Assembly: GCA_028277605.1 (NCBI GenBank) | Contig: JANQFZ010000049.1 | Span: forward strand, 1 to 64,000 | Direction of reading: 5' to 3' | Origin: Vallitaleaceae bacterium | GTDB taxonomy: Bacteria > Bacillota > Clostridia > Lachnospirales > Vallitaleaceae | Length of the DNA stretch: 64,000 nucleotides | The notes under the pieces: generated by a model | What the model was told of the DNA's origin: nothing | Database searches by the model: none | Seen by the model: only the letters and a program-made list of their open reading frames with translations | Program-made: the position numbers and the translations under genes | Shown here: piece by piece, positions 4,958-22,379 of the stretch | Layout of the letters: each line of letters opens with the position of its first letter | Position numbering within the stretch: the stretch's first letter is position 1

Positions 4958-5740
4958 TTATTGATCAGAATGTGTTTTTGTGCTATTGGTATGTGAACCA
5001 AATATATTGATAAATTCGCTTGGAGAATAACCTAAGTATTTTTTAAAAACTCTTATAAAATGCTTGTAATCATAGAAGCCAACCGTCTTTGCAATGGAAT
5101 ATATTTTAATATCTGTAGTAAGCATTAACTTGGTTGCGTTTTTTACTCTGACCCTATTTAAATAATCAACGAAGGTATGACCTGTATAGCTTTTAAATTG
5201 CTTAGCTATAAAAGTGGAGCCCATCCCTGTTAAATTCTTAAGATCTTGTAAGGTAATTTTATGCCTATAGTTTTCGCGAATATATTCTAATATTTTTTTC
5301 ATATGACTATTGGCTTTGGAGCTACTCAATGGTTGAAGATCAATAGTAGGTATAGGTATTTTTTTTGACTTAGACTTCTTTTTTTTAATTATTTTCTTCA
5401 GAGATTCGGATAATTGTTTTGGGTCAAGTGGTTTGAGTAAGTAATCAACAACTTCTAAATTGATGGCTTTTTTTGCGTAATTGAATTCATCAAACACAGA
5501 GAGGATGATTGAACGATAGGCATACTCTTGTGTATCCTGTAGCATTTCCAAACCATCTTTAATTGGCATACCTACATCTGTTATCACAATATCTGGATTT
5601 ATTGTTTTAATTAATTCTATGCCTTCTATTCCATTGGCAGCCTCACCCACAATGATACAATTGTGGGACTCCCAATCAAATGTATAGATTAATCCCTGCC
5701 TAATTAATGGTTCATCTTCAACGATAATGACTTTATACAT
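4958..5740 (-). CDS. Response regulator, REC plus AraC-type DNA-binding domain (YesN type)
   Basis: The 260-residue protein has an N-terminal receiver domain (residues 1-120) with acidic pocket residues EDE (8-10), phospho-acceptor D55 in TDVGMP and the LLKPLD lysine. The C-terminal AraC/XylS double helix-turn-helix (about 155-250) ends in the family pattern VGFYDYKHFIRVFKKYLGYSPSEF (split motif, residues about 222-245). It overlaps the upstream kinase gene by 8 bases, so the two are translationally coupled. Regulators of this YesMN type normally activate adjacent carbohydrate ABC transporters. The divergent transporter at 7590 is therefore the likely target. Confidence 0.92.
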   Translation of the reverse strand: MYKVIIVEDEPLIRQGLIYTFDWESHNCIIVGEAANGIEGIELIKTINPDIVITDVGMPIKDGLEMLQDTQEYAYRSIILSVFDEFNYAKKAINLEVVDYLLKPLDPKQLSESLKKIIKKKKSKSKKIPIPTIDLQPLSSSKANSHMKKILEYIRENYRHKITLQDLKNLTGMGSTFIAKQFKSYTGHTFVDYLNRVRVKNATKLMLTTDIKIYSIAKTVGFYDYKHFIRVFKKYLGYSPSEFINIFGSHTNSTKTHSDQ

Positions 5741-7436
5741 TTTCTTTTCCCTCTTCTCGAATGATGGGTAACTTCACTGTAGAAGTTAAACCATTTTCAT
5801 TATTTGACATTTCTAGTCCATACTCATTGCCATATAAATAGGTTATTCTTTTATTAATATTGTAAAGACCAAATCCAATTAAATCATTATGATACTCTAA
5901 TGAGTTAGCAGAATTGATTTTATCTAATTTTGATTGTTTAATTCCGCCTGCATTGTCCTTAATTGTTATGAATAAAGCATTATCCTTTATAGCAAATGAA
6001 AGATCTATTCTAATGCATTTCTTTTTTTTGAATCCGTATTTAATTGAGTTTTCAACTATAGGTTGAATCATCAATTTGGGGATCGTTAAGTTCGCCAGAT
6101 CATGAGATAAATTAATATTGAACTGTAGATTTTCTTTAAAACGATATTTATGTAGCTTCAAGTAGTCTAATATATAAGAACTATCTTTTTCTAATGTTAC
6201 AAAGTCTTGAGTTTTGTCAAGGTTAAATCTGAGTATACTAGATAACGTAAGAATAATATTTTGAGCTTCTTGGGTATCTGTTATAATGGTGTATTTCAAT
6301 GTTTCAAGAACATTAAAAATTAAATGTGGGTTAAATTGAGATTGTAATTGCTTTATCTCAGCCATTTTTTGTAACTCAGATAATTCTTGATTTAAGGCAA
6401 TTAAATGATTAATTCTGGTAAGCATAGAATTAAACTGATCACCAAGAAGCTTAAACTCATCATCAGATTTAATATCAACATAGCAATTTAAATTGCCATA
6501 TTCAAATTCTTTCATAGCCTTAAGCAAGTTATCAATGGGTGATGTTATCTTATCTGTAAAAGATTTTGTTATTATTTTAGATAGTAAAACAAATAATAAA
6601 ATGATTAATAAACCAAAAATAAAAAACCAAAAACTATAAATAAAGGGTGTATACAAGGTGGTAAGAGAAAATATGTTCAGATTACTATTAGGTAATTCCA
6701 CTGTTTTAATAAAAAATTCTGTGTCATTATAGGTGCAAGTATTATAAGAGGTATATTTGGGTATAAATTTACCAATGTAATCTAAAATTATATCATTCGA
6801 AGTAGCAATAACATTGTTGAACTCATCCGTAATTAATGTTAACGTAGAATATTTGTTAAAACAAATTTTCTCCAAATCTTTTTTGCTTAATACTAGGATT
6901 AAGTAACCGATATTTCCTTTATCCGTTGTTATCTTTCTTCCATACAAATAAATATAATTATATTGACCTTTAGATTTAACGTTTTCGACTTCCCTTATTA
7001 GTTGATTATCTTTTAAATCTATTCTTTTAAGTAGCCGCTCAATATTATGATGACTTTGAAAATCGGATTCATCATCACCTATGTAATACGCAATGGTTCC
7101 ATCCCCTTTTATAAGAAACAGGGTACTAGAAATAGTTTGCTGACTATTAAAATTGATGTAGAGTTCATCCAAATAAGGTGTTTCAATAGTTGAATCAATG
7201 TAATCAAGAATGACTGAATTCTTTTGAAGATAAGAGGTATACTCAATATAGTTGTTGTTGGTTTTATAAAGTAATTTTTGTATGTCCTGAACGGTATCCT
7301 TGTTAAGCTTGGTTAATACAACATAATTAAGAATTGAATTTGCCAAGACAAACAGAGTTAATAGAACAATCAAAGGTATGGTAAGGTTAAATAAAAAATA
7401 TTTTTGTATAATATTTTTGAATTTATCTTTTGCCAT
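5733..7436 (-). CDS. Sensor histidine kinase, YesM type
   Basis: The 567-residue membrane kinase has a first membrane span at about residues 17-38, a large extracellular sensing domain (cache-like, about 40-265), a second span at about 268-292, a HAMP linker, and the His_kinase domain with phospho-acceptor H371 in SQFNPHLIFN. The HATPase region has N and G boxes (VENSIKYGF, DNAGGI). It partners the overlapping response regulator. The start is ATG with ACAGGAGGTG upstream. An extended -10 (TGGTATAAT, TATAAT complement at 7455-7460) lies upstream. The ligand is unknown; by context it could be a phosphorylated or free galactoside outside the cell. Confidence 0.92.
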   Translation of the reverse strand: MAKDKFKNIIQKYFLFNLTIPLIVLLTLFVLANSILNYVVLTKLNKDTVQDIQKLLYKTNNNYIEYTSYLQKNSVILDYIDSTIETPYLDELYINFNSQQTISSTLFLIKGDGTIAYYIGDDESDFQSHHNIERLLKRIDLKDNQLIREVENVKSKGQYNYIYLYGRKITTDKGNIGYLILVLSKKDLEKICFNKYSTLTLITDEFNNVIATSNDIILDYIGKFIPKYTSYNTCTYNDTEFFIKTVELPNSNLNIFSLTTLYTPFIYSFWFFIFGLLIILLFVLLSKIITKSFTDKITSPIDNLLKAMKEFEYGNLNCYVDIKSDDEFKLLGDQFNSMLTRINHLIALNQELSELQKMAEIKQLQSQFNPHLIFNVLETLKYTIITDTQEAQNIILTLSSILRFNLDKTQDFVTLEKDSSYILDYLKLHKYRFKENLQFNINLSHDLANLTIPKLMIQPIVENSIKYGFKKKKCIRIDLSFAIKDNALFITIKDNAGGIKQSKLDKINSANSLEYHNDLIGFGLYNINKRITYLYGNEYGLEMSNNENGLTSTVKLPIIREEGKENV

Positions 7437-7454
7437 GATACACCTCCTGTAAAT

Positions 7455-7460
7455 ATTATA
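7455..7460 (-). promoter_or_regulatory. Extended -10 element for the two-component operon
   Basis: On the minus strand TGGTATAAT lies 24 to 32 bases upstream of the kinase ATG. It matches an extended -10. No good -35 is visible at 17 bases, which suits an activator-dependent or weak promoter. Confidence 0.45.
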
Positions 7461-7498
7461 CCATAAAACTAATATATATCAGTGATTATTGTTGAAAA

Positions 7499-7525
7499 CG
7501 TAAGATAGTCAACCCGTAAGTAGGA
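7499..7525 (+). promoter_or_regulatory. Direct repeats, candidate response-regulator site
   Basis: CGTAAG occurs at 7499-7504 and again at 7515-7520, each followed by a similar TAG-containing flank, in the gap between the divergent kinase and transporter genes. Tandem repeats at helical-scale spacing are typical of AraC-type response regulator sites. The assignment to this regulator is inference. Confidence 0.3.
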
Positions 7526-7589
7526 TTATGGTATTGTAACCTTTTTTACTAGTTAGTATACTGAACATATCAAAAGAAAGGAGAATAAC

Positions 7590-8606
7590 ATGAAAAAATT
7601 ACTAGCGGGATTACTAAGTATTATGATGGTAATGTTAATTTTTACAGCTTGTGGTGAGAAGAAGAATGATAAAGTGCTTACAATTTATACACCAAATTCT
7701 GAGGACTTAGTCAATGCAATTATTCCTATGTTCGAAGAAGAGACAGGTATTACGGTTGAAGTCATAGCTGCTGGAACTGGTGATTGCTTCAAGCGTATTG
7801 AATCTGAGCAAAACAATCCCATTGCTGACTTAATGTGGGGTGGATCTGCTGCTAAGCATTCATCTAACTTAGAATTATTTCAAGACTATGTTTCTGAAAA
7901 TGATAAATATGTTGTAGAGGGATATAAAAATTCTAATGGTAAATCTACCTATTATGTCTTAGATGGAACTGTTTTTATTGTCAATAATGACTTAGCTGAG
8001 GCAGCAGGAATTGAAATTAAAGGGTATCAAGACTTATTACAACCTGAGTTAAAAGGCAAAATTGCTCATAACGACGCTGCTGCTTCCAGTTCTGCTTTTG
8101 CACATTTAACCACAGCTTTACTAGCAATAGGCGGCAGTTATGAAGAGCAAGCAGGCTGGGACTATATGAAAGCTTTATTAGAAAATATTGGTGGTATTAC
8201 CACTAGTGGTTCAGGAGACACACATGCAAGTGTTGCCAATGGCGAATATATAGTTGGTTTAACATGGGAAGATCCTGTAATTACTTATATTCGAGAAGGT
8301 GTTAACGTAAGTGTCGTACTTCCAGAAGAAGGAACGACTTATAACGGGTCAGCGGTTGCTATAGTAAAAGACGCTAAAAACTTTAAAAACGCTAAATTAT
8401 TTGTTGATTTCTTATTGTCAAAAGAAGTTCAAGAATATATAGGTAAAAATTTGAATAATCGACCAGTAAGAGAAGCCGTAGCAACAGCAGATTATTTAGT
8501 ACCTTTTGAAGATATAAAATTAGTATTTGAAGATATTGGTTATGTAAGAGAAAACACGACAACTCTAAAAGAGAAATATACGGATATTATAACGACTATT
8601 AAGTAA
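7590..8606 (+). CDS. ABC transporter substrate-binding lipoprotein, AfuA/FbpA-like (candidate sugar-phosphate binding)
   Basis: The 338-residue lipoprotein has lipobox FTAC (Cys21). The mature part belongs to the iron/putrescine/phosphonate-type binding protein cluster (PF13343/PF13416 type). Features include LTIYTPNSEDLVNA at the start, ADLMWGG, and NRPVRE near the end. This cluster contains classical Fe(III)-binding FbpA and the hexose-phosphate binder AfuA, as well as phosphonate binders. The gene is first in an operon with an ATPase, a fused permease and lacA-lacB-lacG-aldolase genes, so a phosphorylated sugar is a more likely ligand than iron. No Fur box lies upstream. RBS AAAGGAGAA precedes the ATG. 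Ligand assignment is inference; the family call is strong. Confidence 0.85.
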   Translation: MKKLLAGLLSIMMVMLIFTACGEKKNDKVLTIYTPNSEDLVNAIIPMFEEETGITVEVIAAGTGDCFKRIESEQNNPIADLMWGGSAAKHSSNLELFQDYVSENDKYVVEGYKNSNGKSTYYVLDGTVFIVNNDLAEAAGIEIKGYQDLLQPELKGKIAHNDAAASSSAFAHLTTALLAIGGSYEEQAGWDYMKALLENIGGITTSGSGDTHASVANGEYIVGLTWEDPVITYIREGVNVSVVLPEEGTTYNGSAVAIVKDAKNFKNAKLFVDFLLSKEVQEYIGKNLNNRPVREAVATADYLVPFEDIKLVFEDIGYVRENTTTLKEKYTDIITTIK

Positions 8607-8705
8607 GAAATGAAACTCGTAGGTGATGATAGATGAATATCTATCATCTCTACACTACTTGATTAAATATTAAAATAGCTAGAGTTGGAAAGCTGAGGAC
8701 TAGAT

Positions 8706-9848
8706 ATGAGTATTAATATAAAATTTAATAATATTGTGAAACGTTATAAAGATTTAACAGTCATTCCTGGATTATCATTTAGTATTAATAAAGCAGAGTT
8801 TTTCACCTTATTAGGTCCATCAGGGTGCGGTAAAACGACTTTGTTGAGAATGGTTGCAGGATTTAATTCAATAGAAGAGGGTGAAATATACTTTGATGAT
8901 GTGATAGTCAATCGTATGCCACCAAGCAAAAGAAACATTGGGATGGTTTTTCAAAATTATGCAATTTTCCCCCATCTATCTGTGAACAAAAATATTAGCT
9001 TTGGTTTAGAAAATAGAAAAGTACCAAAAGACCAAATAAAAACAAAAGTAGATGAGATATTAAATGTTGTGCAGATGAATCAATACAAAAATAGGATGCC
9101 CAGTACGCTATCTGGTGGACAACAACAAAGAATAGCTTTAGCTAGAGCAACTGTGATCAATCCAGCACTACTACTGATGGATGAACCACTCTCTAACTTA
9201 GATGCAAAACTGAGAGTAGAATTGAGAAGTTCCATCAAAAATATTCAAAAGAAATTAGGAATAACGACCATATATGTAACACACGATCAAGCAGAAGCAA
9301 TGGCTGTTTCAGATAGAATTGGTGTTATGAAGGATGGGTTAATTCATCATATAGGAACACCGCAGAACATTTATCACCGTCCTGCTTCCTTATTTGTATC
9401 CACATTTATTGGTCATAGCAACATCATGGAAAGCAAAATAAGGGTTAATCATGGGAAATATGAGTTGGTTTTGTCTGAGGACTATAAAGTTGAAATGGAT
9501 AACATAGATACTCATTTAGTTAAAAAAGATGAAGATGTAAAAGTGTCCATTAGACCTGAAGAGTTTATCATTGATCATAAAGCCAAGGTTGGATTGAATG
9601 GGATGGTTAAGTCTAATGTTTTTTTAGGCGTAACTATCAATTACATAATAGAGCTTGATAATGGTCAATGTGTTGAAGTACTCCAAGAATCCTCATTAAA
9701 ATCACAAATAATGGAAGGAGAACGCGTCAAACTTGTCATTAAAAAAGAAAAAATTAATGTCTTTAGAAAAGATGGCTTTGTTAACTATACATTAGGCGTT
9801 ATTAATGATATAGATATCAATCAATATAATTTAGAAGGAGATAATTAA
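8706..9848 (+). CDS. ABC transporter ATP-binding protein (FbpC/AfuC-like)
   Basis: The 380-residue ATPase has Walker A GPSGCGKTT (37-45), Q-loop in VFQNYAIFPH, signature LSGGQQQ (about 136), Walker B LLLMDEP, D-loop SNLDAKLR and H-loop THDQAEA. The remaining 130 residues form a C-terminal OB/TOBE-type regulatory domain, as in FbpC, PotA and MalK. It energises the fused permease encoded one base downstream. A 99-base gap separates it from the binding protein gene and contains no clear terminator. Same-strand packing and spacing indicate one operon. Confidence 0.92.
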   Translation: MSINIKFNNIVKRYKDLTVIPGLSFSINKAEFFTLLGPSGCGKTTLLRMVAGFNSIEEGEIYFDDVIVNRMPPSKRNIGMVFQNYAIFPHLSVNKNISFGLENRKVPKDQIKTKVDEILNVVQMNQYKNRMPSTLSGGQQQRIALARATVINPALLLMDEPLSNLDAKLRVELRSSIKNIQKKLGITTIYVTHDQAEAMAVSDRIGVMKDGLIHHIGTPQNIYHRPASLFVSTFIGHSNIMESKIRVNHGKYELVLSEDYKVEMDNIDTHLVKKDEDVKVSIRPEEFIIDHKAKVGLNGMVKSNVFLGVTINYIIELDNGQCVEVLQESSLKSQIMEGERVKLVIKKEKINVFRKDGFVNYTLGVINDIDINQYNLEGDN

Positions 9849-9849
9849 A

Positions 9850-11493
9850 ATGAATAAGAGAAAGGACATATGGTCTTATTTGACTGTATTGACGTTTGTG
9901 TTGTATGCAATCTTATTGATATTTCCTTTGATTATGTTGCTAAAATCAAGTGTACAATACGGAGACAATAGTTTTTCATTGCATTACTTTCAAAAATTTT
10001 TTGGTAAACAATATTATATGGACGCATTGTGGAACAGTGTAAAAGTCACAGTTGCTGTAACTTTCTTTTCAGTAATTATTGCTGTACCATTGGCATATTT
10101 TTTAACCACTTTGAAGATGAAAGGAAAGAATTTAATTCAGATTCTTATAGTTGTATCGTCTGTCTCACCTCCATTTATTGGCGCTTATTCATGGATACTG
10201 TTATTAGGTAGAAATGGGGCTATAACCAACTTTATTAAGAATACATTTGGGCTATTAACACCTGATATCTATGGATTTGGTGGCATTGTATTGGTCATGT
10301 CTTTACAACTATTTCCATTAATTTTCATATACTCAATGGGTGTATTTAAGAATATTGATAATTCACTCATTGAAGCAGCTGAGAGCATGGGATGCACTGG
10401 CTTAAAGAAAATGTTTAAAGTGATTATGCCTTTAATTACACCAACCATACTTGCGGGTTCATTATTAGTATTTATGAGAACTCTATCAGACTTTGGTACA
10501 CCAATGTTAATTGGAAAAGGATATAGAACCATTCCCGTATTAATATATAATGAGTTCATAAGCGAAGTAGGCGGTGAAGCAGGATTTGCAGCGGCTATTA
10601 GTATATTAGTGGTTATTGTAACCACACTTATTTTTATGGCTCAGCAATATATCCAAAAGAAAAAAAGCTTCACAATGAATACATTGCATCCTATTCAAGT
10701 AAAAGATGTTCAATTTCGTAAGAAGATATTTCCAGTGAGTTACATTTATTTCATTTTATTTTTGGCTTTGATACCCCGTATATATGTTATTTACACATCG
10801 TTTTTAGCAACAAAAGGGCAGATTTTTACCAATCAATTTTCATTAGAGAGTTATAGTATGGCATTTAAAAAACTTGGTTCTAGCATACAAACAACATTTT
10901 ACTTAGCCATTGTATCCATGGTGGTAATTATACTGTTTTCCATTATCATAGCATACATAACAGTCAGAAGATCGAATAAGATAACCAAAATCATTGATAT
11001 CGTTAGCATGTTTCCGCTGCTGGTTCCTGGATCAGTTCTTGGTATTGCTATGGCGACATCATTTAATAACAAACCATTGCTTCTTAGTGGTACAGCCTTA
11101 ATTCTAATTATTTCTTTTTCTATTAGGCGGATGCCCTATACCATTAGATCTAGCTCTGCGGCACTTGAGCAATCCAGTGTGAGTGTTGAAGAAGCAGCCA
11201 TAAGTCTAGGTGCTTCCAAAATAAAAACTTTTGCTAAAGTAGTACTGCCAATGATGATTAGTGGTGTTATATCTGGTGCTATACTGAGCTGGATTAATAT
11301 TTTTAGTGAGTTGTCCACGTCCATTATTTTATACACGGCACGTACCAAAACAATCAGTGTTGCAATATACACTGAAGTAATGAGAGGTAACTTCGGGGTA
11401 GCTGCTGCGCTTTCAACTATTTTGACCATAATAATGATTGTTTCATTATTAATATTCTTTAAAGTAACAGGTAACAAAGAATTATCTATGTAA
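9850..11493 (+). CDS. ABC transporter permease, fused two-domain (FbpB/AfuB-like)
   Basis: The 547-residue protein contains two BinD-type permease halves in tandem, each with about six membrane helices. Each half has an EAA loop for ATPase docking: EAAESMGCTGLKKMFKVI near residue 178 and EAAISLGASKIKTF near 448. Fused permeases are characteristic of the Fe(III)/sugar-phosphate/thiamine branch of ABC importers and differ from the LplB/LplC split pair found later in this window. RBS AGAAGGAGA stands before the ATG. It is followed 10 bases after its stop by lacA. Confidence 0.9.
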   Translation: MNKRKDIWSYLTVLTFVLYAILLIFPLIMLLKSSVQYGDNSFSLHYFQKFFGKQYYMDALWNSVKVTVAVTFFSVIIAVPLAYFLTTLKMKGKNLIQILIVVSSVSPPFIGAYSWILLLGRNGAITNFIKNTFGLLTPDIYGFGGIVLVMSLQLFPLIFIYSMGVFKNIDNSLIEAAESMGCTGLKKMFKVIMPLITPTILAGSLLVFMRTLSDFGTPMLIGKGYRTIPVLIYNEFISEVGGEAGFAAAISILVVIVTTLIFMAQQYIQKKKSFTMNTLHPIQVKDVQFRKKIFPVSYIYFILFLALIPRIYVIYTSFLATKGQIFTNQFSLESYSMAFKKLGSSIQTTFYLAIVSMVVIILFSIIIAYITVRRSNKITKIIDIVSMFPLLVPGSVLGIAMATSFNNKPLLLSGTALILIISFSIRRMPYTIRSSSAALEQSSVSVEEAAISLGASKIKTFAKVVLPMMISGVISGAILSWINIFSELSTSIILYTARTKTISVAIYTEVMRGNFGVAAALSTILTIIMIVSLLIFFKVTGNKELSM

Positions 11494-11503
11494 GGAGAGA
11501 ACC

Positions 11504-11935
11504 ATGACAAAAAAAATATTTATAGGATCAGATGTTGATGGACTTGAGTTTAAAAATCATATAAAAGCTTTTCTGTATCAAAAAGGTTATTCAGTAAATG
11601 ATTTAACGGAAAATATCAAGGCTGACTTTGTAACATCATCCAATCTTGTAGCAAAGGCTGTTTTAAAACATGGTGGTCAAGGTATCTTAATTGATGAGTA
11701 TGGAATGGGATCATTTATGGTTGCTAATAGACATAAGGGCATCATTTGTGCTGCTTTATCAGATGAGCATTCAGCAAGAATGACACGTGAACACAATAAT
11801 ACCTCGATTATTACACTTGGTTCAGGAGTTGTTGGCAAAAGAATTGCAGAGCAGATAGTTATGCGTTTTGTTACCTCTGACTATGCGGGTGGTAGACACC
11901 AAATTAGAATAGATATGCTAAATAAACTATGCTAG
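11504..11935 (+). CDS. lacA: Galactose-6-phosphate isomerase subunit LacA
   Basis: The 143-residue RpiB/LacAB-fold protein matches LacA of the tagatose-6-phosphate pathway in length and in its distinctive segments: IDEYGMGSFMVANR, the DEHSARMTREHNN block, and the C-terminal end GGRHQIRIDMLNKLC. LacA lacks the RpiB active-site Cys and works only with LacB, converting D-galactose 6-phosphate to D-tagatose 6-phosphate in the cytoplasm. RBS AAGGAGAG precedes the ATG. lacB follows 10 bases downstream. Its presence behind an ABC transporter, without a PTS, is unusual. Confidence 0.9.
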   Translation: MTKKIFIGSDVDGLEFKNHIKAFLYQKGYSVNDLTENIKADFVTSSNLVAKAVLKHGGQGILIDEYGMGSFMVANRHKGIICAALSDEHSARMTREHNNTSIITLGSGVVGKRIAEQIVMRFVTSDYAGGRHQIRIDMLNKLC

Positions 11936-11945
11936 GAGAATTAAG

Positions 11946-12464
11946 ATGATAATTTCAATAGGATGTGATCATATTGTTACTGAAATTAAGGATCACGTTA
12001 AGCAATATTTAATAGATCTTGGGCATTCAGTTATTGATGTGGGCACTTATGACAAAATACGGACACATTACCCTATTTATGGGAAATTAGCTGCTGAAAG
12101 AGTTGCTACAAAAGAAGCAGATGTCGGAATTATATTTTGTGGAACTGCCATTGGTATAACGGTTGCTGCTTCAAAGATTAAGGGCGTACGGGCAGCAGTA
12201 GTTAAAGATGTTCAAACAGCCAAATATGCTAAAAAAACGCTAAATGCTAATGTTATTGGTATGGGTGGTAGAGTCTGTGGTATTGGACTAATTGAACATA
12301 TTATTGATGAGTTTCTCAATGCACACTATCAAGAGACTGAAGAAAACAAAAAACTCATTCAGCAAATTGATGAGATGGTGAAAGAGGATTATTCTCAGGA
12401 TAAAGGATTTTTCGATGAGTATTTAGCTCGTTGGGAACAAGGAGACTATAAAGATGAATCATAA
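11946..12464 (+). CDS. lacB: Galactose-6-phosphate isomerase subunit LacB
   Basis: The 172-residue protein is the catalytic partner of LacA. It has GCDHIVTEIKDHV at the N-terminus, DVGTYDKIRTHYPIYG (the RTHYPI segment is typical of LacB), and the active-site FCGTAIGI loop with Cys and Thr of the RpiB/LacB fold. The C-terminus has the family pattern TEENKKLI and FFDEYLARWEQGDYKDE. Its reaction is isomerisation of galactose 6-phosphate to tagatose 6-phosphate. The stop overlaps the lacG start by 11 bases, so translation is coupled. Confidence 0.92.
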   Translation: MIISIGCDHIVTEIKDHVKQYLIDLGHSVIDVGTYDKIRTHYPIYGKLAAERVATKEADVGIIFCGTAIGITVAASKIKGVRAAVVKDVQTAKYAKKTLNANVIGMGGRVCGIGLIEHIIDEFLNAHYQETEENKKLIQQIDEMVKEDYSQDKGFFDEYLARWEQGDYKDES

Positions 12465-13875
12465 ATTTCAATTGGATAAAGACTTTATACTAGGAGCCGC
12501 TCTTTCTGCCTACCAAGCAGAAGGGTCACCTAATACAGATGGTAGAGGACCCTGTTATTGGGATGCTTATTTATCAAAAGAAAACACGGGATTTGATGGA
12601 TCTGTTGCCAGTGACTTCTATAAAAGGTATCCTCAGGATGTTAAATTGTGTTCAGATTTTGGAGTCAATGCACTAAGGATTTCTATATCATGGAGCAGAA
12701 TACTTCCCGATGGAACAGGCAAAATTAACCAAGCAGGAATCAACTATTATCATCAACTAATTGATGCATGCTTGGAAAACAATGTGGAACCTTTTGTAAC
12801 ATTACATCATTTTGATACACCGCTAACGCTTCATAAACAAGGAGATTGGTTAAATAGAGACACGATTGATTACTTTGTTCGGTTTGCTAAAGTTTGTTTT
12901 ACTGAGTATGGAACGAAAGTAAAGAAATGGATTACTATCAATGAACCATGGTCGGTTGCAGCTGGACAATATATAATAGGTCATTTTCCACCAAATATAA
13001 AATATGATATTCCAAAGGCTATTGATGCTTTACATAATATGATGTGTGCACATGCTAAAGTTGTCCTTTTATATCGCTCACTTAATTTAATTGGGGAAAT
13101 TGGAATTGTTCACATATTAGAAAGCAAATATCCAATAGTAGATAGTGAGAAAAATAGAATAGCAGTTCAAAATGAAGATGTTTTAGCCAATCAATTTTTG
13201 CTTGAGGCGACATTTAATGGTTTTTATTCAAAGAAAACTTTAAATGTGATTAATAAAATATTAGATGCCTATGATAGAACTTTTGTTTTTGATGAACATG
13301 ATATTAGAGATCTATCTAAAGCAGCAAAAGAACTTGACTTTTTAGGACTTAATTATTATGCCAGCCATTTTATAAAAGCATATGATGGAGATAATGAAAT
13401 TAATCATAATGGAACAGGAAAGAAGAATTCATCACAATATCGATTGAAAGGAATAGGGGAACGCGTTATCAATAAAAATATTCCTTCAACAGATTGGGAT
13501 TGGCCGATCTATCCCATTGGATTAAAAGATATGATTGAACGTATTAATAATGACTTTCGAAATTCAAAAACAATATATGTAACTGAAAATGGACTGGGTA
13601 GTCCAGATAAACTGATAAAGGGCGTTGTTGATGATCAGCAGCGGATAGATTATATTGAGCAGCATTTAGCTGTGATTGATCAATGTATGAAACAGGGAAT
13701 TAACATAAGAGGATACTTTGTATGGTCTTTGTTCGATGTACTGTCTTGGACGAATGGGTATAATAAACGCTATGGCTTATTCTATGTGGACTTTAAAAAT
13801 CAAACAAGATATCCAAAAAAATCAGCGTACTGGTGGAAAAAAATGTCTCTCTCAAGATTGAATCATAATGGTTAA
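12454..13875 (+). CDS. lacG: 6-phospho-beta-galactosidase (GH1)
   Basis: The 473-residue GH1 enzyme has acid/base E164 in INEPW and nucleophile E378 in YVTENGLG. Near the C-terminus SWTNGYNKRY carries S431, K438 and Y440, the 6-phosphate binding triad of LacG-type enzymes. W432 matches the Trp reported in LacG proteins at the position linked to galacto- over gluco-substrates. Segments such as EPFVTLHHFDTP, HFPPNIKYD and TDWDWPIYPIGL also fit LacG. It hydrolyses 6-phospho-beta-galactosides to galactose 6-phosphate in the cytoplasm. A phosphorylated substrate must therefore reach the cell, yet no PTS EII is encoded nearby. 6-phospho-beta-glucosidase is the main alternative. Confidence 0.9.
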   Translation: MNHKFQLDKDFILGAALSAYQAEGSPNTDGRGPCYWDAYLSKENTGFDGSVASDFYKRYPQDVKLCSDFGVNALRISISWSRILPDGTGKINQAGINYYHQLIDACLENNVEPFVTLHHFDTPLTLHKQGDWLNRDTIDYFVRFAKVCFTEYGTKVKKWITINEPWSVAAGQYIIGHFPPNIKYDIPKAIDALHNMMCAHAKVVLLYRSLNLIGEIGIVHILESKYPIVDSEKNRIAVQNEDVLANQFLLEATFNGFYSKKTLNVINKILDAYDRTFVFDEHDIRDLSKAAKELDFLGLNYYASHFIKAYDGDNEINHNGTGKKNSSQYRLKGIGERVINKNIPSTDWDWPIYPIGLKDMIERINNDFRNSKTIYVTENGLGSPDKLIKGVVDDQQRIDYIEQHLAVIDQCMKQGINIRGYFVWSLFDVLSWTNGYNKRYGLFYVDFKNQTRYPKKSAYWWKKMSLSRLNHNG

Positions 13876-13911
13876 CTGATAGGGTTTCAGTGAAAGCAAT
13901 GATAAAGAGGG

Positions 13912-13940
13912 TTGACTGTGTGACATTAATTACTTAAATA
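13912..13940 (+). promoter_or_regulatory. Possible internal promoter before the aldolase gene
   Basis: TTGACT (13912-13917) and TAAATA (13935-13940) are spaced by 17 bases in the 103-base gap between lacG and the aldolase gene. The -10 is imperfect. It could give separate expression of the aldolase. Confidence 0.35.
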
Positions 13941-13978
13941 TAAACGATAATGATCAAGCGAATTAGGGAGGAATTACG

Positions 13979-14827
13979 GTGTTTACAACCTCAAGACAAT
14001 TACTATTAAATGCACAAAAAAAAGGCTATGCAGTTCCTGCATTTAATGTAGAGAATATGGAAATGGCAATGGCAGTTATCAAGATTGCTAATGAGATGAA
14101 ATCTCCAGTTATTATTCAAACAACACCATCAACATTAAATTATGCTTCACCCAAAACCTATCAATCCATAGTTAAGGCTATTGCGGAAGAAGTAGATATC
14201 CCAGTTGCTCTGCACTTGGATCATGGATCTAGCTTTGAGCTTGCTGTGAAAACGATAAAAGAAGGCTATACATCGGTTATGATTGATGGTTCTCATTATA
14301 GCTTTGAAGAGAACGTAAGACTAACCAAAAGAGTTGTAGATGTAGGAAAAGCGTGTAACATTCCTATTGAAGCTGAATTAGGGAAAGTTGGTGGAAAAGA
14401 AGATGACCTAGATGGTGGTGATGGTAATAAAAATACGGATCCACTTGAAGCATTAGAATTTGTTAAACGTACGGATGTAGACTTTTTAGCCATAGCAATT
14501 GGTACTTCACATGGCTTATATAAAGGAACACCTAATATTGACATTAAAAGGTTAAAAGAAATTCGTAAAACGGTAGATGTTCCACTAGTATTACATGGTA
14601 CATCAGGAGTGGATGGAGAGATTGTTCAGCAATGTGTTAAAGCTGGTATGTGTAAAGTTAATTATGCTACAGAGTTAAGAGTCGCTTATAGTAATGGTGT
14701 AAAAGAAGTTTTCGCAGATAATCAAGACGTGTATGATCCTAAAGTATATGGACGTGTAGCCATGGAAAAAGTAGAAAATGTAGTCCGCAAAAATATAAGC
14801 TATTGCTTTAGTGAAAATAAAGCTTAA
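13979..14827 (+). CDS. Class II tagatose/fructose-bisphosphate aldolase (GatY/KbaY/FbaA family)
   Basis: The 282-residue class II aldolase has catalytic/metal residues D81 and H82 in LHLDHGSS, the EAELG loop, a Zn-ligand His in IGTSHG and another in LHGTSG, and the ATELR motif. It cleaves ketose 1,6-bisphosphates to dihydroxyacetone phosphate and glyceraldehyde 3-phosphate. Next to lacA, lacB and lacG, the expected substrate is tagatose 1,6-bisphosphate, although sequence alone cannot exclude fructose bisphosphate. The usual streptococcal LacD is a class I enzyme, so this operon uses a different aldolase family. The start is GTG with AGGGAGGAAT upstream. No tagatose-6-phosphate kinase (LacC) is encoded here. 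Confidence 0.85.
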   Translation: MFTTSRQLLLNAQKKGYAVPAFNVENMEMAMAVIKIANEMKSPVIIQTTPSTLNYASPKTYQSIVKAIAEEVDIPVALHLDHGSSFELAVKTIKEGYTSVMIDGSHYSFEENVRLTKRVVDVGKACNIPIEAELGKVGGKEDDLDGGDGNKNTDPLEALEFVKRTDVDFLAIAIGTSHGLYKGTPNIDIKRLKEIRKTVDVPLVLHGTSGVDGEIVQQCVKAGMCKVNYATELRVAYSNGVKEVFADNQDVYDPKVYGRVAMEKVENVVRKNISYCFSENKA

Positions 14828-15156: not shown

Positions 15157-16164
15157 ATGAAAAAAGTAACGATAAAAGACGTAGCTAAAGCAGCTGGGGT
15201 TGCTATTTCCACTACTTCTAATGCTTTAAATGGATCAAGTTTAGTCAATGAAGAAACAAGAAAAAAAATACTTGCAGTTGCCAAAGAGTTGAACTATGTT
15301 CCTAATCTTAATGGGAGGTACCTTAAGACTGGGAAAACAAAAATGCTCTGCTTTATAACATCTAATGTCAGAGGACCTTACTTTTATATGCTGGTTGAAT
15401 CCATGTGCCATGAATGTGAAAGACTAGGGTATGGTATGAATCTAATTGTCACAAAGGATAAAAATGTCATTATGAATCATATGGTTGGACAAGGATTTGA
15501 TGGTGTATTTATTTATGAAGGGGAACGTATACAAGAACAAGAGCTGAAGATTATTGACCAAAGCCGTGTAAAGACTATTTTATTAGATAGAAGCTATTCT
15601 AGCGAGTTTATTAGCAGTCTTGTGTTTGATTCTTATCAGGCAGGTTTTTATGTAACGAGATATTTGATTAACCTTGGACATCAAAGGATATGTTTTATAG
15701 AAGGCGCAGATGATGTATACGATAGTATTGAACGTAAAAGAGGCTATATCGATGCGCTAAAAGCCTATGATATTCCTTATGACGAAGATTTGATTATTCG
15801 TGGATACTTCGAAGAAACCTACACCTACAATTCGGTTACAACAATGCTCAGAATAGAGAATGTTGCCTTGCCAGATGCTTTTATTGCAGGAAATGACTTG
15901 AGTGCTATAGGATGTATGAAAGCATTAAAGGCGCTGGGGTACGAAATTCCTAAGGATGTTAGTGTTGTAGGTTTTGATGATATAGAGGTTGCTGAATATT
16001 TATCACCTTCACTAACAACCATACGTAATCCAATCGATCGTCAAGGTGTTCAAGCTATTGAATTAATGATGCGTATGATTCATCATAATGAAAAAGGACG
16101 TGTTGAGCAGTTAAAAGGGGAATTAATACCAAGAAAATCGACAGGTATATGTCTTAGAAAATGA
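15157..16164 (+). CDS. LacI-family transcriptional regulator
   Basis: The 335-residue regulator has an N-terminal helix-turn-helix (VTIKDVAKAAGVAISTTSNA, residues 3-22), a hinge around residues 45-60, and a periplasmic-binding-like sensor domain to the end (FDDIEVAEYLSPSLTTI is the usual C-terminal motif). It probably binds TAGAAACGTTTCTA in its own promoter and upstream of the transporter-GH30 operon, releasing on a sugar derived from the GH30 substrate. No such site is seen ahead of the lac/tagatose operon, so that operon is probably under the two-component system instead. A tight terminator starts inside the stop codon. Confidence 0.92.
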   Translation: MKKVTIKDVAKAAGVAISTTSNALNGSSLVNEETRKKILAVAKELNYVPNLNGRYLKTGKTKMLCFITSNVRGPYFYMLVESMCHECERLGYGMNLIVTKDKNVIMNHMVGQGFDGVFIYEGERIQEQELKIIDQSRVKTILLDRSYSSEFISSLVFDSYQAGFYVTRYLINLGHQRICFIEGADDVYDSIERKRGYIDALKAYDIPYDEDLIIRGYFEETYTYNSVTTMLRIENVALPDAFIAGNDLSAIGCMKALKALGYEIPKDVSVVGFDDIEVAEYLSPSLTTIRNPIDRQGVQAIELMMRMIHHNEKGRVEQLKGELIPRKSTGICLRK

Positions 16165-16183
16165 AGCGAAAGCTTCTTTTTTT
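16143..16183 (+). repeat. Direct repeat copy 1 (lacI end plus terminator)
   Basis: The stretch AGGTATATgTCTTAGAAAAT, then the GAAGC hairpin and T run, matches 18643-18685 with one substitution and one inserted A. Copy 1 encodes the last residues of the LacI-type regulator. The two copies flank the Fur-regulated lipoprotein/methyltransferase pair. Confidence 0.75.
16162..16183 (+). terminator. Terminator of the lacI-family gene
   Basis: Stem GAAGC/GCTTC with a GAAA tetraloop and seven T residues begins within the TGA stop. Almost the same sequence, with flank, recurs at 18643-18685. Confidence 0.85.
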
Positions 16184-16257
16184 ATTCACTTATTCAGCAA
16201 ACAATGTATCTGGGAATACAGGTAAAAACACAGAATACATGCTATACTATTTTTTGA

Positions 16258-16286
16258 ATGATAATGATAATAGATATCATTATCAT
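16258..16286 (+). promoter_or_regulatory. Fur-box palindrome
   Basis: Two perfect 12-base arms (ATGATAATGATA and its complement) separated by five bases reproduce the hexameric GATAAT array of classical Fur boxes. It lies 31 bases upstream of the lipoprotein ATG and just downstream of a possible -10 TATACT (16243-16248). Iron-dependent repression is expected. Confidence 0.85.
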
Positions 16287-16316
16287 AAACATTATATTAA
16301 AGGACGGATATTACTT

Positions 16317-17519
16317 ATGAAAAATTTACAAAAGATTTTAGTAGCTTTAACTATTGTTTTAAGTATTGTAGGTTGTACAGGTGAGAATGAAAAGAATAAT
16401 GTTAACGAAGTAGCTTCAAATGAAGCAAAACAGAAAGATTCAATAAATAAAACAACTGAGTCTGACGATGATTCAACAAGATTAGATAATCATTTAGATA
16501 ATAATAATGAGAAAACCATTCAAATAACTGACTGTGCAGGTAGAAAAGTTGAAATAGAAGGTACAGCAGAAAGAATTGTTGATCTAACAATGATAGAGGG
16601 AGTTCGTACTTTAATACAATTGGGAGCACAGGATCGTTTGGTTGGGATGAGTCAATATGATCATCAGGCTTTTAATCCAGATGGATTGTTTAAGAAAACT
16701 TATTTTATTGTATCTAGATTTAAATCTGAGATGGAGAAAATTACTAATGTAGGGAGTCATACAGAACCCAATATAGAAATGGTATTATCATTAGAGCCTG
16801 ATGTCGTTTTCGTAGAATATAACAGAAAAGAATATGCGGATGTACTTCAAAAGCAAATTGATATTCCAGTTGTTTGTGTTGGAGGATATGGAAGTTTTAA
16901 TTATGAAGTATTTAGTATAGTGGGGGAAATTGTAGGAAAGGAAGAAAGAGCTAAAGAGTTAATTGCTTTTGCTAAGGAAAAAATAAAATTAGTAACTGAT
17001 ATTACTGATAAGATAAAAGAAGAAGATAAGAAAAGCATATACTACTGGGTTCGTCCACTCATTGATGATCCAAGAACAGATGCATATTATGAAGCATTCG
17101 AGCTTGCAGGTGCAATAAACGTTGCATCAAATGCAGAAAATATTTCTGAAAGCATGTTTAAAGTTACAAAAGAGCAAATATTGGCATGGGATGCAGATTA
17201 TATATTTATGCACTCTTCATTTACAGAAGAAAATGTTAAAGGATGGCATACAATTGATAGTATTAAGCAGGATAGTATAGTTAAAGGAACAAAAGCGGTT
17301 ATTGATAATCATGTATATCCCCTAAGAGGACCTATGAGAGGTTGGGATATTGCTACTCAAGCCGCAGAAGTATTATATATTGCAAAGCTATTATATCCTG
17401 ATAAATTTATTGATTTAGATGTTGAACAGAATGGCAATGAAATTTTAGAAAAATTCTATAATATAAATGGGCTATATACAGATATGAGTCAAAAAGTCAA
17501 TCTTTATGAATGGAAATAA
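16317..17519 (+). CDS. Iron-siderophore/cobalamin-type ABC transporter binding lipoprotein
   Basis: The 400-residue lipoprotein has lipobox SIVGC (Cys20), an Asn/Glu/Lys/Asp-rich linker to about residue 65, and a Peripla_BP_2 (TroA/FepB-like) domain with DCAGRKVEIEGTAERIV, the LEPDVVFVEYN segment and a C-terminal RGWDIATQAAEVLYIAKLLYPD. Such proteins deliver ferric siderophores, heme or cobalamin to a FecCD-type permease. No permease or ATPase is nearby, so it must share a transporter encoded elsewhere. The start is ATG 16317, after the Fur box and AAAGGACGG; an earlier in-frame ATG at 16161 overlaps the terminator and is rejected. It is probably co-transcribed with the next methyltransferase gene. 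Confidence 0.88.
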   Translation: MKNLQKILVALTIVLSIVGCTGENEKNNVNEVASNEAKQKDSINKTTESDDDSTRLDNHLDNNNEKTIQITDCAGRKVEIEGTAERIVDLTMIEGVRTLIQLGAQDRLVGMSQYDHQAFNPDGLFKKTYFIVSRFKSEMEKITNVGSHTEPNIEMVLSLEPDVVFVEYNRKEYADVLQKQIDIPVVCVGGYGSFNYEVFSIVGEIVGKEERAKELIAFAKEKIKLVTDITDKIKEEDKKSIYYWVRPLIDDPRTDAYYEAFELAGAINVASNAENISESMFKVTKEQILAWDADYIFMHSSFTEENVKGWHTIDSIKQDSIVKGTKAVIDNHVYPLRGPMRGWDIATQAAEVLYIAKLLYPDKFIDLDVEQNGNEILEKFYNINGLYTDMSQKVNLYEWK

Positions 17520-20428: not shown

Positions 20429-21385
20429 ATGCTTGTACAAGAAAGGGTGTTGGATAAAAAATCTATAACACAAAGGATTAAGCAATGGGGAAGCGAGTTT
20501 AAAAAGCAGCTTGCGCTGCAAAGTATGGTCTTACCTGGTATTGTATTTTTGATTATATTTAGCTACATACCGCTATATGGCTTATCCATTGCCTTCAAAA
20601 ACTATTCAATCGTTAGTACGCTGAGTAGTGCTGATTGGATAGGCTTAGAGAATTTCAAAATCATTCTTAATGATCAATATTTTTGGGATTCTGTTGTTAA
20701 TACACTTGGAATTAGTCTTTTAAAACTCGCTTTTGGTTTCATTACACCGATTATACTTGCAGTAATGATCTATGAGGTGAAAGAAGGACCTTTTAAGCGA
20801 ATTGTACAAACGATATCCTATCTGCCACATTTCTTATCATGGATTGTATTAGGCGGTATGTTGATCAGTTGGATGTCAACCAGTGGCATGTTTAACCAAA
20901 TTTTGATAACACTTGGCGTGATTAATGAAGGTAAAAATATACTGCTTGATGCCGATAAGTACTGGTGGATTGCATCTCTATCGGATATTTGGAAGGAAGC
21001 GGGATGGGGTACTATCTTATACTTAGCAACAATGGCTGGTATTGATCCAACATTTTATGAGGCTGCTCGTATAGATGGAGCTGGACGGATCCGCCAAATA
21101 TGGAGTATTACCTTACCCCTTATTAAACCAATTATTACGTTGAACTTTATTTTAACTATAAGTGGCTTGTTAGGATCAAACCTAGATCAAACCATGGTAT
21201 TAATGAACTCTCAAAACCAGCCAAAAGCAGAGGTCATTAACTCTTATGTATATCGTATGGGGCTTCAGCAAGGAGATTTTTCTTACGCCACGGCAGCTGA
21301 TCTAGGGGTATCAATTGTCTCTGTTATTTTACTTATCTTAGCTCACCAGCTGACAAAAAAGCTAAACGACCAATCTGTATTATAG
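20429..21385 (+). CDS. Oligosaccharide ABC transporter permease, LplB/YteP type
   Basis: The 318-residue membrane protein has six predicted helices after a 30-residue charged N-terminus. The permease EAA loop is YEAARIDGAGRIRQIWSITLP. The FSYIPLYGLSIAFKNY segment is typical of the LplB family. It pairs with the next gene's permease to form a CUT1-type importer with no dedicated ATPase in the operon; a shared MsmX-like ATPase is usual for this family. RBS GTGGAGGT stands before the ATG. Confidence 0.92.
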   Translation: MLVQERVLDKKSITQRIKQWGSEFKKQLALQSMVLPGIVFLIIFSYIPLYGLSIAFKNYSIVSTLSSADWIGLENFKIILNDQYFWDSVVNTLGISLLKLAFGFITPIILAVMIYEVKEGPFKRIVQTISYLPHFLSWIVLGGMLISWMSTSGMFNQILITLGVINEGKNILLDADKYWWIASLSDIWKEAGWGTILYLATMAGIDPTFYEAARIDGAGRIRQIWSITLPLIKPIITLNFILTISGLLGSNLDQTMVLMNSQNQPKAEVINSYVYRMGLQQGDFSYATAADLGVSIVSVILLILAHQLTKKLNDQSVL

Positions 21386-21395
21386 GAGGAGAAGT

Positions 21396-22289
21396 ATGAA
21401 ACCGTTATATTCAACTACGAAAAAAAGGCTATGCAGTGGAAAGTTATTTAATGCTGTTATTGTAGTTCTTTTAATTGTACTTTCGATTATTATAATTTTT
21501 CCTATATGGAATGTCATTGTTAACTCATTAAGTGGTGCTCAAGCTTCAGCAAGTGGTATAAATATTTTTTGGACATCGGAGTTCTCTCTTGAAAATTATA
21601 AAGCTGTATTTAGAGATACCTCTATTTGGCGTGCTTTTATTGTCTCTGTATTGAAAACAGTACTTGGTGTCATCTGTCATGTCTTTTTTTGTGCTATGGT
21701 TGCTTATGGTATGAGTAAAAAAACGTTAAAGGGACGTAAGCTGTATACAACTATAGGAGTCATTACCATGTTTTTCTCAGGCGGTATTATACCCACCTAT
21801 TTATTAATCAAGTCATTAGGACTATTGAATTCATTTTGGGTTTATATCTTTCCAGCTTTATTTAGCTATTATGATATGATTATTCTTATGAATTTCTTTA
21901 GGCAGGTACCAGAGTCATTAGAAGAATCAGCTCGAATAGATGGAGCGGGGGTGTGGAGAACGTTTTTATCGGTTATTTTACCATTGTCAAAGCCTGTACT
22001 AGCTACAATTGCTTTATTTCATGGTGTTTACCAATGGAATGATTTTATGACAACAAAGCTTTACATAACAAAAGAAGCGTTATATCCATTACAAATGAAA
22101 TTGTATGAAATTATTGTGCAGCAGCAAGTCACAAGTATGGTAAATCCAACCAGTGTTGCCATCACAACAACTTCAAAAGGCATTCAATTAGCGACTATTG
22201 TAGTAACCACTTTACCTATTATTATCATCTATCCAGTTCTACAGAAGCATTTTGTAACTGGCATGATGTTAGGGTCAGTTAAAGGGTAA
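21396..22289 (+). CDS. Oligosaccharide ABC transporter permease, LplC/YtcP type
   Basis: The 297-residue protein has six membrane helices. The EAA loop is EESARIDGAGVWRTFLSVILP, and the FFSGGIIPTYLLIKSLGL and C-terminal KHFVTGMMLGSVKG segments are characteristic of LplC. It is the second permease half, encoded 10 bases after the first with AGGAGGAG as ribosome binding site. The transported sugar is not identifiable from the permease. Confidence 0.92.
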   Translation: MKPLYSTTKKRLCSGKLFNAVIVVLLIVLSIIIIFPIWNVIVNSLSGAQASASGINIFWTSEFSLENYKAVFRDTSIWRAFIVSVLKTVLGVICHVFFCAMVAYGMSKKTLKGRKLYTTIGVITMFFSGGIIPTYLLIKSLGLLNSFWVYIFPALFSYYDMIILMNFFRQVPESLEESARIDGAGVWRTFLSVILPLSKPVLATIALFHGVYQWNDFMTTKLYITKEALYPLQMKLYEIIVQQQVTSMVNPTSVAITTTSKGIQLATIVVTTLPIIIIYPVLQKHFVTGMMLGSVKG

Positions 22290-22379
22290 GTCGCTTGCCT
22301 TTATAATTAAATATATAAGGTACTAGAAAATTTTTCGCTTTTTATTTGTTTTTACATATAAATGTTAGGAGGATTAACA

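Follow-up and report, generated by a model that had tools for sequence, protein, structure and literature searches.

The window analyzed here is a stretch of 64,000 nucleotides from Vallitaleaceae bacterium (assembly GCA_028277605.1, contig JANQFZ010000049.1, positions 1-64,000, forward strand). At positions 7590-14827 it carries a plus-strand operon encoding, in order, a lipoprotein solute-binding protein (SBP), an ABC ATPase, a fused permease, LacA, LacB, LacG and a class II ketose-bisphosphate aldolase. An earlier note, made from the sequence alone, had described these genes as tightly packed on one strand. Family models confirm what the genes encode, and all seven open reading frames (ORFs) are intact. 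What the note overlooked is a divergent pair beside the operon (4958-7436), comprising a YesM-type histidine kinase (HK) and an AraC-type response regulator (RR).

4958-5740, minus strand: AraC-type RR (Response_reg and HTH_18); belongs to an SBP-ABC-HK-RR cassette in relatives
5733-7436, minus strand: YesM/HptS-like sensor HK with HAMP, divergent from the operon (His_kinase, HATPase_c, HAMP)
7437-7589, no strand assigned: divergent intergenic region, with promoter-like hexamers on both strands and AGGAG before the SBP start
7590-8606, plus strand: lipoprotein SBP, HptA/AfuA-like, lipobox Cys21 (phmmer, AlphaFold, Foldseek)
8617-8654, plus strand: hairpin in the SBP/ATPase gap, 10-bp GATGATAGAT/ATCTATCATC core (RNA fold)
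8706-9848, plus strand: ABC ATPase with TOBE_2 domain (domain models)
9850-11493, plus strand: fused ABC permease with a pair of BPD_transp_1 stretches (closest model PhnU2, under cut-off)
11504-11935, plus strand: LacA, galactose-6-phosphate isomerase subunit (NF006380; pocket residues)
11946-12464, plus strand: LacB, galactose-6-phosphate isomerase catalytic subunit (NF006381; pocket residues)
12454-13875, plus strand: LacG, GH1 6-phospho-beta-galactosidase (1pbg; active-site residues)
13979-14827, plus strand: class II ketose-bisphosphate aldolase, GatY/KbaY-like, GTG start (best PDB match 1gvf; GatY model)
15157-16164, plus strand: LacI/GalR-family regulator, 329 bp downstream of the aldolase gene (family model)

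From SBP through aldolase, the intergenic distances are 99, 1, 10, 10, -11 and 103 bp. Because only 10 bp separate the permease gene from lacA and the lac genes adjoin or overlap one another, the layout suggests that permease and lac genes share one transcript. The hairpin is strong (z -2.7; 3 of 200 shuffles fold equally well) and is possibly an mRNA processing or attenuation element. The promoter-like hexamers in the divergent region are no more frequent than expected by chance, and the downstream LacI/GalR-family regulator is possibly linked to the operon. The arrangement is known from one assembly; since GC content and codon usage of the operon broadly resemble the remainder of the window, which has zero Ns, a chimeric assembly join is unlikely.

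The lac enzymes and the lower pathway

LacG scores above the cut-offs of both of its NCBIfam models (TIGR01233, 599.7 versus 561.2 bits; NF010036, 702.5 versus 610), and its nearest solved structure is 1pbg (E 9e-162). Every one of the 13 active-site positions checked is identical to 1pbg, including E164, E378, S431, W432, K438 and Y440. The protein thus retains the GH1 catalytic Glu pair, the Ser-Lys-Tyr phosphate site and the galactose-selecting Trp; the phosphate site and Trp432 rule out an unphosphorylated beta-glucosidase or a 6-phospho-beta-glucosidase. LacA and LacB score above NF006380 (187.3 versus 164) and NF006381 (239.6 versus 234), respectively, and both lie under the stricter TIGR01118/TIGR01119 cut-offs. 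The LacA pocket residues M93, H97, N98, R131, H132 and R135 correspond to the published M92, H96, N97, R130, H131 and R134 (offset +1), while the LacB pocket retains D8, H9, I10, R39, Y42, C65, T67 and I69, with a single change of T73 to V. The isomerase signature, consisting of LacB Cys65/Asp8/His9/Arg39 and the equivalents of LacA His96/Arg130/Arg134, is therefore present, and LacB (172 aa) has the C-terminal extension. We rejected the reading of LacAB as mere RpiB isomerases: their family models, the arginines of the pocket and the tail of LacB all fit galactose-6-phosphate isomerase, and three further RpiB/LacAB-family genes lie elsewhere in the genome. LacG and LacAB require 6-phosphorylated substrates.

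The aldolase scores above the general ketose-bisphosphate model TIGR00167 and under the cut-offs of both KbaY and GatY; GatY is its top-scoring model, narrowly missed (378.8 bits versus a cut-off of 383). As with the GatYZ/KbaYZ tagatose-bisphosphate aldolases, its best solved relative is 1gvf, the tagatose-bisphosphate aldolase AgaY/KbaY; unlike them, it lacks a GatZ/KbaZ partner encoded in the same operon. It also belongs to a different subgroup from the lac-operon aldolases compared, deviating at 36 of 122 near-invariant columns. The earlier note had read a tagatose pathway here, and LacAB, LacG and an aldolase are indeed encoded, but the operon lacks the tagatose-6-phosphate kinase: it contains no lacC or other PfkB gene. 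It has no lacD either. Nor was a dedicated tagatose-6-phosphate kinase found in the genome, whose PfkB proteins reach at most 146-164 bits against LacC cut-offs of 410-469. A LacD-like aldolase encoded on contig C37 scores above the cut-off of a broad model for tagatose-1,6-bisphosphate aldolases. Its gene lies near DhaK-like genes and has no tie to the operon, and we rejected it as the class I enzyme of the pathway.

The binding protein and its sensor cassette

AfuA homologues are defined by the sugar-contacting residues His205, Asp206 and Glu229 (PMC4546632). For HptA, reported binding is limited to glucose 6-phosphate and galactose 6-phosphate (PMC13419708), and the protein signals to a kinase (PMC8774646). 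Among solved structures, phmmer ranks HptA (6lki/6lkg) first for the window SBP, followed by AfuA (4r72). The AlphaFold model of the SBP (pLDDT 90.6) has AfuA (ranks 1-5), the glucose-6-phosphate-binding VcA0625, P5PA and HptA as its top Foldseek matches, and a profile search likewise places AfuA, VcA0625, P5PA and HptA above the iron binders. The earlier assignment of this protein to an AfuA-like, Fe/sugar-phosphate branch holds in that its nearest solved relatives are sugar-phosphate binders, but the protein is of the HptA type: AfuA H205/D206/E229 align with D228, P229 and Asn. Without that set, the specificity of the SBP cannot be deduced from its residues. Its best reading is an HptA-type, putative sugar-phosphate binder.

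These rankings bear on the usual annotation of the fold family, a ferric-iron (FbpABC) importer. The SBP and FbpA are members of one structural superfamily, and ferric proteins do appear among its lower-ranked matches, by sequence and by fold. However, sugar-phosphate and pyridoxal-phosphate binders stand above every iron binder by both profile and fold, and Asp and Pro occupy the AfuA H205/D206 positions, which we take to be the equivalents of the FbpA iron-tyrosine pair. We regard iron transport as highly improbable.

Two characterized systems resemble parts of the locus. The AfuABC hexose/heptose-phosphate importer of Actinobacillus, Citrobacter and EHEC shares the SBP, ATPase and permease; the predicted fold of the window SBP is nearest AfuA, and the phosphate-contacting AfuA residues Ser37/Thr150 have Thr and Ser as their counterparts here. 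It differs in retaining the H/D/E set, and the window importer is coupled to LacG and LacAB. The HptRSA glucose-6-phosphate-sensing system of Staphylococcus aureus shares the top sequence relative, HptA, and an adjacent kinase and AraC-type regulator. There, HptA has a sensing role in UhpT expression and is no transporter subunit, whereas the window SBP is encoded by the first gene of an ABC importer operon. A profile search with the window kinase returned no HptS chain, so the relationship of the two kinases rests on gene context.

The SBP-ABC-HK-RR cassette is common in the order, in many genomes without lac genes, and homologues of the HK and RR adjoin SBP relatives in 19 of 20 loci. In five genomes of the same family, an HptA-type SBP, HK and RR stand beside a second SBP with the full AfuA H/D/E set; the second SBP from one of these matches AfuA with E 1.6e-63. 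Other neighbors of the relatives' cassettes, assessed by eye (chemoreceptor-, HAD- and PHP-like ORFs), indicate no single ligand. The wide occurrence of the cassette apart from lac genes would fit a ligand other than the lac-block sugars, as would the closest family models of the SBP and permease, 2-aminoethylphosphonate PhnS2/PhnU2, both far under cut-off. Against this stand the spacing that suggests a single transcript and the absence of PTS genes at the very locus that has the importer, and we consider a separate ligand improbable.

Phosphotransferase genes and the source of substrate

The earlier note had suggested a survey of lacAB-lacG neighborhoods and a genome search for a lactose-type EIIBC. 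A lactose/cellobiose-type PTS gene (IIA or EIIC) is present at 67 of 68 other LacG loci, and the window-type SBP or ABC permease at none of the 68. The window LacG falls inside a clade of 37 (support 98%) whose remaining members come from PTS-linked loci, and it is the sole LacG among 392 genomes of the order. The usual clostridial order is lacA-lacB-IIA-EIICB-lacG-aldolase-lacC, and the window matches it minus IIA, EIICB and lacC. Compared with the lacABCD-lacFEG lactose PTS/tagatose-6-phosphate operon, then, the window shares LacA, LacB and LacG orthologues, whose active sites are intact, and the same relative order through the aldolase; it differs in lacking those three genes, in its class II GatY-like aldolase, and in having an ABC importer and two-component system in place of the PTS and of the DeoR-like regulator that several clostridial loci carry upstream. 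We found no description in the literature of LacG/LacAB combined with an ABC importer.

The genome (97.7% complete) yielded no lactose-specific EIICB. Its only lac/cel-type IIA and EIIC lie on contig C84 with a small IIB-like ORF, and other PTSs are also present, so the earlier description of a PTS-free version does not hold for the genome. A lone PF03611 match (contig C71), considered as a galactitol-type source of galactose 6-phosphate, proved to be an ascorbate-type EIIC.

The C84 system, or an undetected PTS, might phosphorylate lactose or another beta-galactoside in trans, with LacG and LacAB acting downstream as usual and the ABC system adding only sugar-phosphate uptake or sensing. PTS and lac genes can separate, since ~4.5 kb lie between the two sets, the PTS genes and lacA-lacB-lacG, in Clostridium sp. 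C8-1-8. However, the C84 PTS adjoins its own 6-phospho-beta-glucosidase gene, its EIIC fits the cellobiose model (245 bits) better than the lactose-specific one (170 bits, cut-off 614), and no lactose-specific EIICB was recovered. We therefore view phosphorylation in trans as an unlikely, if appreciable, alternative.

A predicted route for phosphorylated galactosides

Because lacA, lacB and lacG directly follow an ABC importer and sensor of the sugar-phosphate type where nearly every relative examined has a PTS, the cell probably scavenges externally supplied, already phosphorylated galactose compounds. The core of the earlier proposal, in which the ABC system rather than a lactose PTS supplies phosphorylated galactosides or galactose 6-phosphate, fits the data best: LacG and LacAB need 6-phosphorylated substrates and keep their active sites, the operon lacks PTS genes and the nearest solved relatives of the SBP bind sugar phosphates. 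The SBP ligand remains putative. Outside the cell, the HptA-like lipoprotein would bind galactose 6-phosphate and/or 6-phospho-beta-galactosides. Their presence would be signaled by the kinase/regulator pair, and the permease would bring them in still phosphorylated. LacG would cleave phospho-galactosides to galactose 6-phosphate, which LacAB would convert to tagatose 6-phosphate. Phosphorylation to tagatose 1,6-bisphosphate would fall to a kinase from another locus (1-PFK/PfkB type or PfkA), and the operon's aldolase would split the product to triose phosphates. We think it fairly likely that this is a PTS-independent scavenging operon for galactoside phosphates with the full pathway as proposed.

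Several observations weigh on the other side: the SBP lacks the AfuA sugar-contacting set, HptA is a sensor rather than a transporter subunit, lacC is absent from the operon, the C84 lactose/cellobiose-family PTS could make phospho-galactosides, the environmental source of such compounds is hypothetical and the arrangement is known from one genome only.

As to origin, a resident cassette of HptA/AfuA-type SBP, ABC importer and two-component sensor may have captured a lac block whose PTS genes (IIA, EIICB) and lacC were lost or replaced. We give roughly even chances to a natural lactose/tagatose-6-phosphate operon in which a sensor-coupled ABC importer for galactose 6-phosphate or intact 6-phospho-beta-galactosides has replaced the PTS, letting the cell feed on sugars that other organisms have phosphorylated. 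LacG and galactose-6-phosphate isomerase are currently taken as markers of a lactose PTS, a rule that fails if the operon works in this way. Extracellular phosphorylated galactosides would then be a usable nutrient, and the substrates of ABC sugar-phosphate importers would extend past glucose, fructose, mannose and sedoheptulose phosphates. The "Fe(3+)-type" SBP/two-component cassettes, poorly characterized and common in the order, would gain a testable class of ligand.

Layout of the operon and its lac enzymes

The genes of the putative importer and of the lac/tagatose enzymes lie as the earlier note had described them, closely packed on one strand, and all seven are intact. A sensor pair diverges from them.

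4958-7436, divergent from the operon: YesM-type kinase and AraC-type response regulator
7590-8606, operon strand, first gene: lipoprotein solute-binding protein (SBP)
8706-9848, same strand as SBP: ATPase
9850-11493, same strand: fused permease
11504-11935, same strand: LacA
11946-12464, same strand: LacB
12454-13875, same strand: LacG
13979-14827, same strand: class II ketose-bisphosphate aldolase

The spacing from SBP to aldolase (99, 1, 10, 10, -11 and 103 bp) makes a single transcript likely. A stable hairpin follows the SBP gene within the operon, a feature common where a binding protein is needed in excess. GC content and codon usage are broadly uniform between the operon and the rest of the window. 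Two neighbors were judged by eye: a lipoprotein-like ORF at 16161-17519, directly 3' of a LacI-family gene and resembling iron-siderophore/cobalamin binding proteins, and a GH30-like glycosidase (24034-25347) adjoining an LplB/YtcP-type sugar ABC importer and binding protein (20429-24017), a glycan-use locus separate from the lac operon.

LacG and 1pbg, a 6-phospho-beta-galactosidase of known structure, align over their full lengths (E 9e-162) and are identical at all 13 active-site positions checked. These include the catalytic glutamates, the Ser-Lys-Tyr phosphate site and a Trp, which we take to play their usual family roles, the Trp favoring galactose over glucose. The pocket residues reported for LacAB of Lactobacillus rhamnosus (PMC3755991) recur in LacA and LacB with one exception, Val in place of Thr73 in LacB. 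Given these conserved residues, LacG and LacAB should depend on 6-phosphorylated galactosides and galactose 6-phosphate as substrates.

The binding protein and its sensor relatives

Among solved proteins, HptA of the S. aureus HptRSA sensor is closest in sequence to the SBP, and AfuA of the AfuABC sugar-phosphate importer is second. In a search with a profile of the SBP family, every iron binder falls below AfuA, VcA0625 (which binds glucose 6-phosphate), P5PA (which binds pyridoxal phosphate) and HptA, and the same four proteins make up the top eight Foldseek entries for its AlphaFold model (pLDDT 90.6). The phosphate-contacting Ser37 and Thr150 of AfuA align with Thr and Ser in the SBP, whereas the sugar-contacting His205, Asp206 and Glu229 align with Asp, Pro and Asn. 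Because this set is replaced and HptA likewise has Asn at the Glu229 position, the SBP is, judging from its residues, of HptA type and not a strict AfuA. The proposed AfuABC-like importer thus stands as regards sugar-phosphate binding relatives, but not as regards the AfuA sugar contacts.

Of 146 genomes searched, 34, counting that of the window, have the SBP or a homologue, and kinase and regulator genes adjoin the homologue in 19 of the 20 loci read. The usual order is SBP-ATPase-permease-kinase-regulator; in the window, by contrast, the kinase and regulator are divergent and lac genes follow the permease. Five same-family genomes (loci L117, L123, L124, L127 and L128) carry a cassette in which an AfuA-type SBP, fused permease and ATPase directly precede an HptA-type SBP with its kinase and response regulator. 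The AfuA-type protein of these cassettes keeps the His/Asp/Glu set (E 1.6e-63 for the one searched against AfuA), and the whole resembles an AfuABC importer joined to an HptRSA sensor. This adjacency links the HptA-type branch in the window's family to sugar phosphates. PMC13419708, citing the original work, reports only glucose 6-phosphate and galactose 6-phosphate as HptA ligands, which argues by analogy that galactose 6-phosphate at least would be imported. Known AfuA ligands are the phosphates of glucose, fructose, mannose and sedoheptulose; the panel tested did not include galactose 6-phosphate (PMC4546632).

Substrate supply and the kinase step

We lean toward a model in which galactose 6-phosphate and/or 6-phospho-beta-galactosides would enter via the ABC importer and pass to LacG and LacAB. 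That the operon includes LacG points to uptake of glycosides as well as the monosaccharide phosphate. The likely source of these compounds, we infer, would be the lysis of neighboring cells equipped with a lactose PTS, or else phosphorylated glycans.

The pathway had been proposed to be PTS-free. This holds for the operon, which has no PTS genes, but the genome (97.7% complete, 86 contigs) encodes six EIIC proteins detected with PF02378: one GlcNAc/glucose-type, two mannitol-like, two fructose-type and one lactose/cellobiose-family, the mannitol-like and one fructose-type protein being classed by sequence and context only. The last, on contig C84 with a IIA, a small IIB-like ORF and a 6-phospho-beta-glucosidase, could act promiscuously and supply phosphorylated galactosides in trans. 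We regard this main alternative as unlikely, though worth serious consideration; for the C84 EIIC, the cellobiose model gives 245 bits and the lactose-specific model 170, against a cut-off of 614 for the latter. The single EIIC-GAT-family protein is ascorbate-type. The search suggested by the earlier note thus found no lactose-specific PTS among the PF02378 and EIIC-GAT families of this genome.

The operon has no tagatose-6-phosphate kinase gene, and the genome's nearest PfkB proteins are 1-phosphofructokinase-like, scoring well below LacC cut-offs; tagatose 6-phosphate would therefore presumably be phosphorylated by such a PfkB or a candidate PfkA. Elsewhere in the genome, contig C82 carries mannitol-family-like EIIC paralogues in tandem, 74% identical, together with genes for a PfkB kinase and a dehydrogenase-like protein; this group may form a tagatose or hexitol route and is a candidate to provide the missing kinase. 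On C37, a LacD-like class I tagatose-1,6-bisphosphate-type aldolase has DhaK-like and sugar-isomerase-like neighbors and may belong to a further ketose pathway.

Among solved structures, the tagatose-bisphosphate aldolase AgaY/KbaY is closest to the operon's aldolase. Comparison with lac-operon aldolases shows the operon's enzyme departing from them at 36 of 122 near-invariant columns, which makes recruitment from elsewhere probable. One more class II aldolase gene of this genome lies on C13.

Distribution and origin of the arrangement

A GTDB scan with the window LacG (one genome per species), which used short peptide patterns and can miss divergent relatives, gave 63 loci; five more came from searching the order (392 genomes), the class (391) and the phylum (398), and of these five L142 shares its LacG with L065. 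In 67 of the 68 the locus also holds a lactose/cellobiose-type IIA or EIIC (EIIC itself in 60), the exception, L108, being a partial match. As for the lacAB-lacG neighborhoods that the earlier note had proposed surveying, neither the SBP nor the fused permease occurs at any of the 68.

Clostridial lac operons typically read lacA-lacB-IIA-EIICB-lacG-aldolase-PfkB; the window keeps this order but is without IIA, EIICB and PfkB. Clostridium sp. C8-1-8 has an intermediate arrangement, lacA-lacB-lacG-aldolase-PfkB, with lactose-type PTS genes split off ~4.5 kb upstream. In quick trees with SH-aLRT support only, the window LacG sits on a long branch within a clade of 37 (98% support), and the rest of that clade comes from PTS-linked loci. 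LacA+LacB cluster, with weak support, with Clostridiaceae and Halonatronum. LacG occurs in one of the 392 genomes sampled from the order, the window's own. From these PTS-linked relatives, the kept gene order and this isolated occurrence, the lac block looks acquired or relict, its transporter replaced. We found no published description of LacG/LacAB with an ABC importer in the open-access literature; the arrangement is new, assembled from known parts.
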